41,965 nucleotides of DNA from a virus: the IMG/VR virus record IMGVR_UViG_3300048912_000043, positions 1-41,965 of that record; one strand, 5' to 3'. The notes beneath the pieces were generated by a model, which worked only from the letters and a program-made list of their open reading frames with translations, searched no databases and was not told where the DNA came from. Position numbers and translations under genes: made by a program. This document shows positions 1 through 41,965 of the stretch, piece after piece. The stretch's first letter is position 1. The number at the start of each line of letters is the position of its first letter.

Positions 1-150
1 GCCACCGGGGACGCCACCGGGGACGCCACCGGGGACGCCACCGGGGACGCCACCTGGGCCGCCACCTGGGCCGCCACCAGGGACGCCACCTGGGCCGCCA
101 CCTGGGCCGCCACCAGGGCCGCCACCAGGGACGCCACCAGGGACGCCACC
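1..150 (+). repeat. 12-bp coding minisatellite, right part
   Basis: Twelve full 12-bp units plus a leading gccacc. Each unit fits NGG-GMC-GCC-ACC, where the first base is A, G or T and the fifth base is A or C. Translated units in order are GDAT four times, WAAT twice, RDAT, WAAT twice, RAAT, RDAT twice. It is continuous with the repeat at 41807-41965 when the window is circularised; the junction unit is one codon short. Confidence 0.97.
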
Positions 151-903
151 GGGGACGATCTGTCGAACTGGTATGTTGTCAACGGCGACATGCGCGCCCT
201 GGCGCGCGAGATCGGTATCGACGACTTCGGTCTCCAGTGTGCCGCGAACGCCTGGAACATGTGGCAGTACGGGAACCAGGACAGCGGCTATGACGCCTAT
301 CTGTCCTTCTTCCAGGACGTCGCCGGCCTGAGCCTTGACTACAGCGCCTATAAGCACTGGCGGACGCTGGCTGAGCGCGCCGGACCGAGGATCATGCACG
401 CCGACTTCTGCATGATCTCGGATCGACCGTCGCTCCTCACCGTGGACGAGCAGAACCGTCCCCACAACGAGACCGGCCCATTCTGCCAATGGCGCGATGG
501 CTCGGCGCTGTTCGCCTGGCACGGCGCCAGAGTTCCGGCGAAGTGGATCGTCAACCGCGCCGATATCGACCCGAGTGAGGTCATCCGACACGAGAACGTC
601 GAGTTGCGCGCAGCCGGCGCGGCCATCGCAGGCTGGCCGAAGATGCTCAAGGTTCTTGAGGCCAAGGTGATCGACGACAGCGGCTCTCCGGATATTGGGC
701 AGCTGATCGAATTGAAGCTGCCCGGCCTCCAAGAGCCCGGACGCTTCCTGAAGGCGATGTGCCCCCGCAACGGGATCATCGTCGAGGGCGTGCCGCGCGT
801 CAGCGATATCGACCGACTGCCGATCGAAACCGCGCTTCACGCCCAGGCGTGGCGCATCGGCGACCCTCTGTCTGAGTACCAGCATCCGCCCGCGCGGACC
901 TGA
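1..903 (+). CDS. DUF6745-like repeat protein, C-terminal part (continues from 41525)
   Basis: The frame is open at base 1 and joins in phase with the ORF open at 41965, giving about 447 residues (147 + 300) if the window is circular. Bases 1-150 encode tandem tetrapeptides of the type [G/W/R]-[D/A]-A-T. The rest (about residues 51-300 of this part) is a folded domain rich in Trp, with WVNRADIDPSEV and ENVELR motifs and a closing segment about Ile/Leu-rich strands. That pattern resembles what I know of the DUF6745 family, whose function is unknown. It is followed by a small gene at 938 in what looks like the same transcription unit. Expression would be early, from the 40.7 kb control region. 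Biochemical role unknown; family call is by recall of motif style only. Confidence 0.7.
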   Translation, partial: ATGDATGDATGDATGDATWAATWAATRDATWAATWAATRAATRDATRDATGDDLSNWYVVNGDMRALAREIGIDDFGLQCAANAWNMWQYGNQDSGYDAYLSFFQDVAGLSLDYSAYKHWRTLAERAGPRIMHADFCMISDRPSLLTVDEQNRPHNETGPFCQWRDGSALFAWHGARVPAKWIVNRADIDPSEVIRHENVELRAAGAAIAGWPKMLKVLEAKVIDDSGSPDIGQLIELKLPGLQEPGRFLKAMCPRNGIIVEGVPRVSDIDRLPIETALHAQAWRIGDPLSEYQHPPART

Positions 904-937: not shown

Positions 938-1291
938 ATGCCCAAGCAGATCATTGGCGCCCAAGGCGAAATTACGATCATCAAGATCGATGCCGCACCG
1001 GCAGACTTCAGCGCCATGGCCAAGGCCGAGCGCGCCAAGGCCGGGTGGATCATCAGCCACAGCGAAAGCGGCCACCACCATGTGCTGACCGGCGGCCAGG
1101 TGATGGAGCGCATCAGCGATGTGCCGGAGGGGATGAAGATCCTCTACGCCATCCTCGAAAACCCCGAGCGCCTGATCCAGGACGCCCAGGTTCCGCACGG
1201 GCACTTCGATCTAGGCGCTGGCATCTATGAGTTCCGCATTGCTCGCGAATTCGACCCCTTTGCCGAACAAGCGCGCCGCGTCGCGGACTGA
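938..1291 (+). CDS. small conserved-looking protein with His-rich motif
   Basis: 117 residues, ATG start, lying 34 bp behind the DUF6745-like gene. The central motif SGHHHVL (about residues 44-50) gives three adjacent histidines, and a second His-containing stretch (HGHFDLGAGIYEF, about 87-99) follows. The protein is mainly beta-prone with a charged C-terminus. The histidines could bind a metal or fit a small cupin-like fold, but I cannot place it in a named family. Proximity suggests it works with the repeat protein; that is inference. Confidence 0.75.
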   Translation: MPKQIIGAQGEITIIKIDAAPADFSAMAKAERAKAGWIISHSESGHHHVLTGGQVMERISDVPEGMKILYAILENPERLIQDAQVPHGHFDLGAGIYEFRIAREFDPFAEQARRVAD

Positions 1292-20281: not shown

Positions 20282-20631
20282 AGCATCTTCCTCAACTCGC
20301 CGTCGATGACCTCAAAACCACGCTTGCGGAGCACCCTGGACCAACCCAGGCGACCGTCGATGGACGTGTAGGCGCAGCCCAGAGCCCGCGCGTGCGCGTT
20401 GACGCCGGGCTCCAGACTGATCAGCTCGGATAGGTTTCCAGCCCCTAGCCAGAGATGCAGGAAGCGGTGTGTAGGAGTCTGTTCCAGGGTCGAGACAAGC
20501 GCGCATCGCTCCCCGGCCCAGAGCATCGCCCTGCCCGTCGCCAATTCCTGTTCCAGATCCTCGATCGTGTAGTTCTCGTGGGACCGCGCCAGGGCCTTCC
20601 GAAGCCGTTCCCGCATCTCCTGTGGCGTCAT
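20278..20631 (-). CDS. GNAT-fold-like phage protein
   Basis: 117 residues. Helix-strand order with LWLGAGNLSELISLEPGVNAHARALGCA resembles small phage proteins of GNAT-like fold found by the tail hub gene. The last residues (GWSRVLRKRGF) match the closing pattern of those proteins. Whether it has acyltransferase activity is unknown; it may help assembly. 4-nt overlaps on both sides. Confidence 0.6.
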   Translation of the reverse strand: MTPQEMRERLRKALARSHENYTIEDLEQELATGRAMLWAGERCALVSTLEQTPTHRFLHLWLGAGNLSELISLEPGVNAHARALGCAYTSIDGRLGWSRVLRKRGFEVIDGELRKML

Positions 20632-22412
20632 CGATCCCCGGCCAGGACCGCGTCGAATAGCGGCACGCCTTGACGCGCAAAGCTGGGAGCTGAGTTACCC
20701 GACCACGTGATGCGGACCATCCGGCCCGTAACGCGAAGGTCGTACTTCTCTTCGCCGGAGACCGTCGTGTAAGGACCGTTGCTGGTCAGGGTCGATTGTG
20801 GGTAGAGGCCGGTCTCGATGGTGACGTGCACCGGGCCAATCTGGTCCTTCAAGTCAGGCCAGAAGCCCCGGATCGCCATGACCCTGGCGTCTTCCGTCAG
20901 GGCGAAATACGAACTCCGGATGCTCCATGAGAGCGCCGAGCCGTCCGCCGAGCTGCCCTTCTCGTGCAGATAGACCATCCCGCCATAGGTCACGCCGATC
21001 GGGTATTGATCAGAGGCCGCGCCGCTGTCTGAATATGCCGTTCGGGCGATATCGCCCAAAGAGGCCGTCACTCCATCCATCGACAAGGCCACGTAGCGGC
21101 TGATCTCGTTCCCATCACGCGCGTCAGCGTAGAAGAACCAAACCTCGTTGAACTTGGTGTTGGTAGCGGCGACAATCTTGTCATTCTGGCTGGGCGCCAG
21201 ATTGTTGACCACGTCATCGCCAACCATGACGTTGAGCTGTTGCGGGACACCACCCACCGGACAGGCAAAGAAACGTCCCTGAGGCGTCAGCCAGTAGGCC
21301 GTCTGCCCTGCCACTGCCGCCGCGCCTGGACCGATCAGGCCGCAATTGTCACCGACCTGCTCAAACACCCACGGCTGGCTTTCATCACCCGTGAACCGGC
21401 CCACGTGAAGCGCTGAATTCGTCCAGACAAAGACGTAATCGCCGACCACCCGGCCGGCGACGATGAAGGACCCGCCTTCCAGGATCACTTGCTCGGCGAG
21501 GTTGTCGCTCTCCGGGACCCAGACAGTGGGGAAGTCCGGATCCGTAAACCGGATTGCCATCGGATTGAAGGTCCCCGACGACGCCATGTTGCAGCCTAGC
21601 GCCATGATTTGGCGTTGAGCCGTCACCAGGGCGTATGTCACTTGCGCCGGGGCGTTGTCGATCGGTGCGGCCCTCACGCCCGTGTCGTTTTCCCACAGAT
21701 AGATCGTGCCGCCTCGAAAGCCGGCCACGACGTTTTCACCACGGTTCGAGAGCGACCACGTCGCAGGATAGAAGGAAGCCGTCGAAGGCGCCGAGTAGTA
21801 GCCCGTCGAATAGGTCCCCGTGCCGTAGCCCGCCCCGCCCGTACCGTCGATCGCGCCACCCGTCCAGGCCCGCTGCGGTGTCACGGTGACGTCCGCTCCG
21901 CCTCCCGTCGCCGTGCTGGTGGCGTTCGAAGTAAAGGCGAAGGTAAACGTGTCCGTCGTCGTCGCGGTGATTGTGAACGTGCCGTTGGGCGTGATCCCCC
22001 CTACCGCTGTAGCCCCGGCTATGACCACACTATCGCCGATAATGTAGGGATGCCCCGCCCGGGTTACGACGACGTTCGGCGTCGCATTCGTCACTGAGAG
22101 CGGGTTTGAACCTAATGCGACCTTTGGCAACGCCAGGGTTGGGGTGATGTCGTACAGGACGTAGTCGTTCAGCAACGACAGATGATCGTGCTGTCCGAAC
22201 GCGATGTTCTGGACGAAGCTGTTGTCCCGGAATGGCAGCACAGATCGACAAACACCCGGAAGTGTCCCGGTATAGTAGCTCTCCCAACCGCCGACCGTCT
22301 GCCACTTGCTCTTCCAGAACCGCACATTGTTGCCGTAATCGAATGAGCCAGGATAGCTGTTCGACGTGTCGTCGGTATTGATCCCCGGCGGAATATCGAT
22401 GCGGAAGCGCAT
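20628..22412 (-). CDS. tail hub/stabilisation protein, P22 gp10-like position
   Basis: 594 residues. It starts with a short N-terminal strand region (RFRIDIPPGINTDD) and contains a repeated-strand beta-propeller-like body. A Thr-rich insert (about 100-180, ending TPQRAW) resembles the small FCCH-type domains found in phage tail proteins. Its place between fibre and ejection genes, next to the GNAT-like gene, is that of the podovirus hub that seals the portal. Confidence 0.65.
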   Translation of the reverse strand: MRFRIDIPPGINTDDTSNSYPGSFDYGNNVRFWKSKWQTVGGWESYYTGTLPGVCRSVLPFRDNSFVQNIAFGQHDHLSLLNDYVLYDITPTLALPKVALGSNPLSVTNATPNVVVTRAGHPYIIGDSVVIAGATAVGGITPNGTFTITATTTDTFTFAFTSNATSTATGGGADVTVTPQRAWTGGAIDGTGGAGYGTGTYSTGYYSAPSTASFYPATWSLSNRGENVVAGFRGGTIYLWENDTGVRAAPIDNAPAQVTYALVTAQRQIMALGCNMASSGTFNPMAIRFTDPDFPTVWVPESDNLAEQVILEGGSFIVAGRVVGDYVFVWTNSALHVGRFTGDESQPWVFEQVGDNCGLIGPGAAAVAGQTAYWLTPQGRFFACPVGGVPQQLNVMVGDDVVNNLAPSQNDKIVAATNTKFNEVWFFYADARDGNEISRYVALSMDGVTASLGDIARTAYSDSGAASDQYPIGVTYGGMVYLHEKGSSADGSALSWSIRSSYFALTEDARVMAIRGFWPDLKDQIGPVHVTIETGLYPQSTLTSNGPYTTVSGEEKYDLRVTGRMVRITWSGNSAPSFARQGVPLFDAVLAGDR

Positions 22413-41524: not shown

Positions 41525-41965
41525 ATGGCGAAAGCCAAGCTCTACCACTTCGAAGACCATCCGGGTCACCGCGAACAGCTTAAGCCATGGGCTGACAAGT
41601 GGATCGCCAACGCCATGTCAACCAAGGCCATGGACGATGCAGACCGCGAGGCCTGCCGTGAGGCAGTGATCGGCATGTACGCCGCCGCTGAGCTGCCGCC
41701 CCCCAAACATATTGTCTTCGTGCCCAGTCCGTTCGTTCTGGCCTTTGCTGGCGGCTTCTCGGCCGCTATTTGGCATCTCAGTAAGCGCGCCAAGCCTACT
41801 ACGACCAGGGACGCCACCAGGGCCGCCACCAGGGACGCCACCAGGGCCGCCACCGGGGCCGCCACCGGGGACGCCACCTGGGACGCCACCGGGGCCGCCA
41901 CCGGGGCCGCTACCAGGGACGCCACCGGGGACGCCACCTGGGACGCCACCGGGGCCGCCACCGGG
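41525..41965 (+). CDS. DUF6745-like repeat protein, N-terminal part (continues at 1)
   Basis: 147 residues to the window end, with AGGGGGGAA upstream of the ATG. Residues 1-94 are a helical N-terminal domain (HFEDHPGHREQLKPWADKW), with a hydrophobic stretch (FVLAFAGGFSAAIWHL, about 71-86) before the repeats. From 41807 the tetrapeptide repeats begin and run to the window end. Joined to 1-903 the protein is about 447 residues. The two domains flank the repeat like ends of a linker. The part from 1 shows DUF6745-like features; function unknown. Confidence 0.72.
   Translation, partial: MAKAKLYHFEDHPGHREQLKPWADKWIANAMSTKAMDDADREACREAVIGMYAAAELPPPKHIVFVPSPFVLAFAGGFSAAIWHLSKRAKPTTTRDATRAATRDATRAATGAATGDATWDATGAATGAATRDATGDATWDATGAATG
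41807..41965 (+). repeat. 12-bp coding minisatellite, left part
   Basis: Thirteen full units plus one codon, of form NGG-GMC-GCY-ACC. Units in order: RDAT, RAAT, RDAT, RAAT, GAAT, GDAT, WDAT, GAAT, GAAT, RDAT, GDAT, WDAT, GAAT. One unit has GCT instead of GCC (near 41909). It continues at base 1. Confidence 0.97.

Follow-up and report, generated by a model that had tools for sequence, protein, structure and literature searches.

A tetrapeptide repeat array of variable length and order between two domains of a DUF6745 phage protein

The window, by which we mean the whole stretch of DNA analysed, is a phage record of 41,965 bp. Using Tandem Repeats Finder, a 12-bp tandem array was detected at both ends of this contig, with a score of 223 at 1–157 and 226 at 41804–41965. 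The two array pieces and the coding regions next to them are arranged as follows.

41525..41803, plus strand: N-terminal domain of the array gene, with an ATG at 41525 and homology to the relatives L049 and L040.
41804..41965, plus strand: array piece 1, about 13 units AT[RGW][DA] (12-bp period in Tandem Repeats Finder, 13.5 copies; translation), one unit with a synonymous GCT.
1..157, plus strand: array piece 2 of the split gene, about 13 units AT[GWR][DA] (12-bp period in Tandem Repeats Finder, 13.1 copies, 93% match; translation).
158..903, plus strand: C-terminal domain with DUF6745 (PF20530), from Pfam and AlphaFold2.
938..1291, plus strand: 117-aa partner gene directly downstream of the DUF6745 gene, from alignments.

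The ORF that starts at the ATG at 41525 runs through the 3′ array piece, and the 5′ piece ends at a stop at 903. The N-terminal piece (41525–41965) and the C-terminal piece (1–903) lie on a common strand and in a common frame. Over 78 residues the N-terminal piece matches the amino-terminal end of L049, a complete relative, at 59% identity (E = 4e-32), and its domain is 32% identical to that of L040 (E = 5e-8). At the other end of the contig the best Pfam match is DUF6745, which covers residues 118–226 of the 5′ piece (approximately nt 352–678; E = 1.3e-12) and, at 47.9 bits, passes the gathering score of 27. Since the N-terminal homology to L049 and the DUF6745 domain are found at opposite ends, we conclude that these are two parts of a single gene, which the contig ends divide within the array. 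The architecture of the DUF6745 array proteins, an N-terminal domain followed by a period-4 array and a C-terminal DUF6745 domain, is thus found across two contig ends, with the junction itself outside the contig. The nine bases GCCACCGGG are both the first nine and the last nine of the contig, and the array ends regain register if these nine bases are counted as common to both. Because the contig breaks within the array, the two sets of about 13 units in the window need not be the full unit count. The array is also open on the reverse strand, where an open-ended shadow ORF of 295 aa covers 1–885 (minus strand).

The unit in the window is GCC-ACC-NGG-GMC, 12 bp in length. A preliminary description had placed about 25 units at positions 1–150; the 12-bp pattern is real, but only about 13 units lie there and the other 13 or so lie at 41804–41965. 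The variable codon begins with G in 10 of the 25 complete units, with A in nine, with T in six and with C in none, and the codon that follows is GAC in 14 and GCC in 11. All six residue pairs that had been claimed are present, and the single GCT is the sole synonymous variant in the window array, in agreement with the earlier remark that almost nothing changes synonymously. A meaning had also been attached to the absence of C from base 1, and this could not be upheld. The Arg codon is specific to each array: in arrays of the NGG type, Arg is encoded by AGG only in 23 cases, by CGG only in five other arrays and by both in none. Since every array keeps one NGG-type Arg codon, we consider the absence of C to be accidental. 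Over the genes of the window as a whole, CGG is the commoner of the two codons (66 versus 11 AGG).

Searches of viral and genome collections yielded more than 100 related loci. DUF6745 proteins of phages, Mycobacteriaceae and alphaproteobacteria resemble the window protein in their N- and C-terminal domains, and about half of the fetched loci carry a tetrapeptide array; they differ from it in that core residues and codons are particular to each lineage and that some lack an array. Among 118 reading frames examined, which include the two pieces from the window itself, 64 contain a period-4 array of up to ~72 units. The core residues are lineage-specific and fall into seven types (AT, AV, QV, QL, NL, SV and SL), which require 14 changes in a tree of the C-terminal domain. 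The variable residue is the one directly after the T, V or L anchor, and two alphabets recur, W/R/G/E with a third base G and D/Y/R/G/A/H with a third base C or T. The alphabet of W, R or G followed by D or A given in the preliminary description therefore holds for the window array but not for its relatives. Since complete relatives without an array exist, we regard the array as an insert between the two domains that a family member may have or lack. No array was detected in the DUF6745 proteins of Microcystis phages (Ma-LMM01 and others), so that a comparison of repeats with these phages is impossible. Using the DNA pattern of the window unit, AT[GRW][DA] arrays were also found in proteins without a DUF6745 match (L143, 5870–6625; L163, 829–1452), the first of which has a weak match to DUF7666 (E = 0.0026, below the cut-off). 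A 12-bp tandem repeat on the Blattabacterium plasmid pMADAR_001 (L129, 60–340) translates like a QV array and lacks DUF6745; we rejected it as a relative and take the match, to a different kind of 12-bp repeat, as a chance one.

Seventeen of the 64 arrays start at a contig end, which indicates that arrays tend to break assemblies and makes their true lengths uncertain. This, together with the break in the window array, raises the question of whether mis-joined short reads made the array or its variation. We give such an artefact almost no credence, since like structures are present in deposited phage records, bacterial genomes and a complete plasmid record, and the reading frame is kept throughout.

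The distribution of changes over site classes was determined in 55 arrays comprising 1673 units. Departures from the array majority amounted to 1.7% at third bases, 37.7% at bases 1–2 of the variable codon and 0.4% at bases 1–2 of the core. The probability that two units differ in a synonymous codon was 0.019 within an array versus 0.518 between arrays, and in 216 of the 221 combinations of residue and array only a single codon occurred. Within an array a given residue has one codon, and nearly all change is concentrated in one or two places of the unit. The number of distinct further states per site was 83 for bases 1–2 of the variable codon, 25.5 for bases 1–2 of the next codon, 7.5 for third bases and 4 for the core; these counts are not independent, because the arrays share descent, and the comparison between site classes carries an equal bias in every class. 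Bases 1–2 of the variable codon thus change at 11 times the per-site rate of third bases. Recent expansion with unit shuffling, or selection admitting certain residues, had been suggested in the preliminary description, and both shuffling and selection find support here: shuffling and turnover in the uniformity of synonymous codons within arrays, their difference between arrays and the different arrays of flank-identical assemblies (see below), and selection in the disparity between variable codon and third positions. These substitution patterns are most simply read as units being duplicated and lost at a high rate while selection favours a variety of residues at one or two sites.

A neutral minisatellite, that is, a tolerated spacer that grows by slippage, varies as far as a flexible linker permits and has no function in its unit number and order, would agree with the optional presence of arrays in the DUF6745 family and with the low confidence of the helix model described below. 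The similar repeats of phage Tweety gp54 were once likened to unstructured proteins (PMC2884959). We nevertheless think a neutral origin unlikely: the 11-fold rate at bases 1–2 of one codon is the reverse of the neutral expectation, the same two restricted alphabets of residues turn up in many lineages, and repeat-number mutants of Tweety show a phenotype (PMC9262239). Variation that is limited to defined bases, with silent third bases, might also be written into the variable codon by dedicated targeted mutagenesis, for instance by a diversity-generating retroelement. No reverse transcriptase (RVT_1) match was found within the window, and the array was rejected as a target of such an element. 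Furthermore, adenine-specific mutagenesis would not spare the A of ACC, which hardly varies although it is present in every AT-type unit. Targeted mutagenesis is consequently very improbable.

Unit number and order vary between assemblies with identical flanks, as was found in the comparison among relatives that the preliminary description had proposed. Loci L021, L022 and L027 are identical over 600 bp upstream and their arrays differ by indels, including indels of two and five units, while L017/L018 and L038/L039 are each identical over 1500 bp downstream and carry different arrays; all of these differences come from metagenome assemblies, which can mis-assemble repeats. Equal unit number and order in distant relatives, which had been named as evidence against active expansion, was not seen among the relatives. 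Arrays can be entirely different in related genes that retain both domains. Mycobacterium interjectum, with SAV[DGYR], and M. parascrofulaceum, with SV[WRG][DA], have wholly different units at a domain DNA identity of 77%, and the units of L049 and L052 differ in their synonymous codons throughout. Turnover is not always visible, since the two copies of the DUF6745 array gene in Nocardia farcinica NCTC11134 (L130 and L131) have arrays that are equal except for two single-base gaps. These gaps shift the frame in one copy and could be sequencing errors.

Unit order is close to random in most arrays. An excess of repeated four-unit words was found in only seven of 42 arrays, so that block duplication is not evident in most of them. 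Near-random order is consistent with a combinatorial recognition code, in which each variable residue contacts a protein or nucleic-acid partner and the order of units is information, as in TAL effectors. In TAL effectors each repeat has 34 residues, constant but for two adjacent variable ones, and the repeats recognise DNA bases. The two adjacent variable residues of the otherwise constant tetrapeptide, and alphabets in which W, Y, R, D, H and G are frequent, likewise speak for a code. Against it, order changes freely among flank-identical assemblies, neither a partner nor a one-unit-one-contact geometry for a four-residue helical unit is known, and the escape mutants of Tweety are described by repeat number. 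We regard a recognition code as quite unlikely.

In AlphaFold2 models the array is a helix, with a pLDDT of ~52–75 in the window model and 38–48 in that of L045. The C-terminal DUF6745 domain is modelled with more confidence, at a pLDDT of ~90–97 across most of its second half. The array may therefore be a long alpha-helix with a small or hydrophobic residue at every fourth position, a model with low-to-moderate structural support. Relatives of the window protein with solved structures were found neither by sequence search nor by fold search, and in a viral fold library only DUF6745 and unnamed phage proteins gave good scores. A literature search on DUF6745 found no function.

The partner gene contains the conserved motifs ISHSExGHHH and REYDPFxEQARRVAD. 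Of the 55 loci that have it, 52 carry it directly downstream, no more than ~150 bp away. Residues H41, S42, E43, G45, H48, H87, E104, R113 and D117 are invariant in 31 members. The partner gene matched no named family, and its distant members match phrog_27831, a family of unknown function. PADLOC and NCBIfam searches gave weak matches only, mostly to the array stretch, with no meaningful match to the defence database. Genes near the array gene in the window encode an Erf-like annealing protein, NinB/Orf, a DNA methyltransferase and an integrase; the presence of genes for recombination, methylation and integration suggests that the array gene sits in the early region of a temperate phage. The window also contains a 21-bp tandem repeat of 2.2 copies at 21817–21863, within a minus-strand ORF (20628–22412) that matches a virion structural protein family.

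The explanation that we favour, and to which we give about an even chance, is that a fast-turnover, selection-diversified tetrapeptide spacer, probably helical, joins two domains of an early phage protein and plausibly tunes counter-defence or host binding. The data given above establish the gene anatomy and the evolutionary pattern. In the mechanism that we propose, the repeat would be a central linker between the N-terminal domain and the DUF6745 domain, and the assembler would have broken the genome inside the array, so that the gene is split over the contig ends. Units of 12 bp would be gained, lost and shuffled in frame through slippage or recombination, while selection would maintain variation at one residue per unit, which is charged, aromatic or tiny. 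If the array is helical as modelled, its length and surface could set the placement of the two domains. We infer the function of the DUF6745 array protein by analogy: like Tweety gp54, it would counter an opponent that varies, most probably a defence encoded by a prophage or by the host, and a changed repeat number or order would retune it.

The array design is present in several unrelated contexts, since L143, L163 and Tweety gp54 all lack a DUF6745 match. It is conceivable, if still doubtful, that several unrelated early proteins (DUF6745, Tweety gp54, the weakly DUF7666-like protein and others) each acquired a hypervariable tetrapeptide array independently. Such arrays would then be a device of phages in general, rewritten fast in both length and unit order to follow host or prophage defences. 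The work on Tweety gp54 left open how the number of four-residue repeats retunes counter-defence, and in the DUF6745 family dozens of variants occur naturally, spread over seven core types, two alphabets and unrelated hosts and accompanied by a conserved partner gene. If the analogy is true, the whole of DUF6745 (a domain of unknown function) would be a candidate anti-defence family, and the relative effects of array length and order would be directly testable. Because tetrapeptide arrays break short-read assemblies, they are under-counted.

Several known systems resemble the window array in part. TAL effector repeats share with it two adjacent variable residues per constant unit, and we claim no homology. 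VR2 of bbp36 in Bordetella phage BMP-1 is likewise a coding repeat of variable number in a phage gene (PMC2884959); it differs in having a 24-bp element, and the likeness is taken from its description only. The GxxxG repeats of FliH are also period-4 coding repeats of variable number (PMC2674601), and the Tweety array matches FliH models. FliH differs in being a flagellar export protein without DUF6745, the likeness being one of composition and period. A search for literature on phage 12-bp coding repeats under other wording found nothing further.

The closest parallel is Tweety gp54 with Che8 gp57 and PMC gp51 (PHROG 3416), which have, like the window, a 12-bp unit of two constant and then two variable residues. 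In Tweety gp54 the first six bases of the unit and both following third bases are invariant, and the reported unit numbers are 48 in Tweety, 26 in Che8 and 15 in PMC (PMC2884959). As in the DUF6745 arrays, third bases are invariant and variation falls in bases 1–2 of adjacent codons; G, W and Q(R) are encoded by NGG and CAG codons, similar to the NGG codon of the window, and the array lies between unique N- and C-terminal parts. The units themselves differ, AA[GWQ][SY] versus AT[WRG][DA]. Homology was rejected for the flanking domains, on the basis of Pfam, PHROG and hhalign: no Pfam family matched Tweety gp54, the window protein did not match PHROG 3416, and hhalign gave a probability of 33% over 11 columns. 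Since the flanking domains are unrelated, the DUF6745 array proteins form a family of their own, of a kind that is already known. Tweety, DeadP, Taj and KristaRAM share identical flanks of 426 bp and 108 bp and have 49, 39, 31 and 17 AAxx units, respectively, as counted by regular expression with one degenerate last unit included. The difference in unit number is clear in these phages; in flank-identical DUF6745 relatives it is seen in metagenome assemblies, which can mis-assemble repeats. Escape from the Phrann gp29/gp30 defence is reported for Tweety gp54 mutants whose unit number is raised or lowered (PMC9262239), and the repeats are also described as tuned against the MichelleMyBell defence (PMC8549241), which gives the tuning by repeat number suggested in the preliminary description an experimental precedent in an unrelated protein. 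Counter-defence tuning has thus been demonstrated for Tweety gp54, and for the DUF6745 protein we propose it by analogy.
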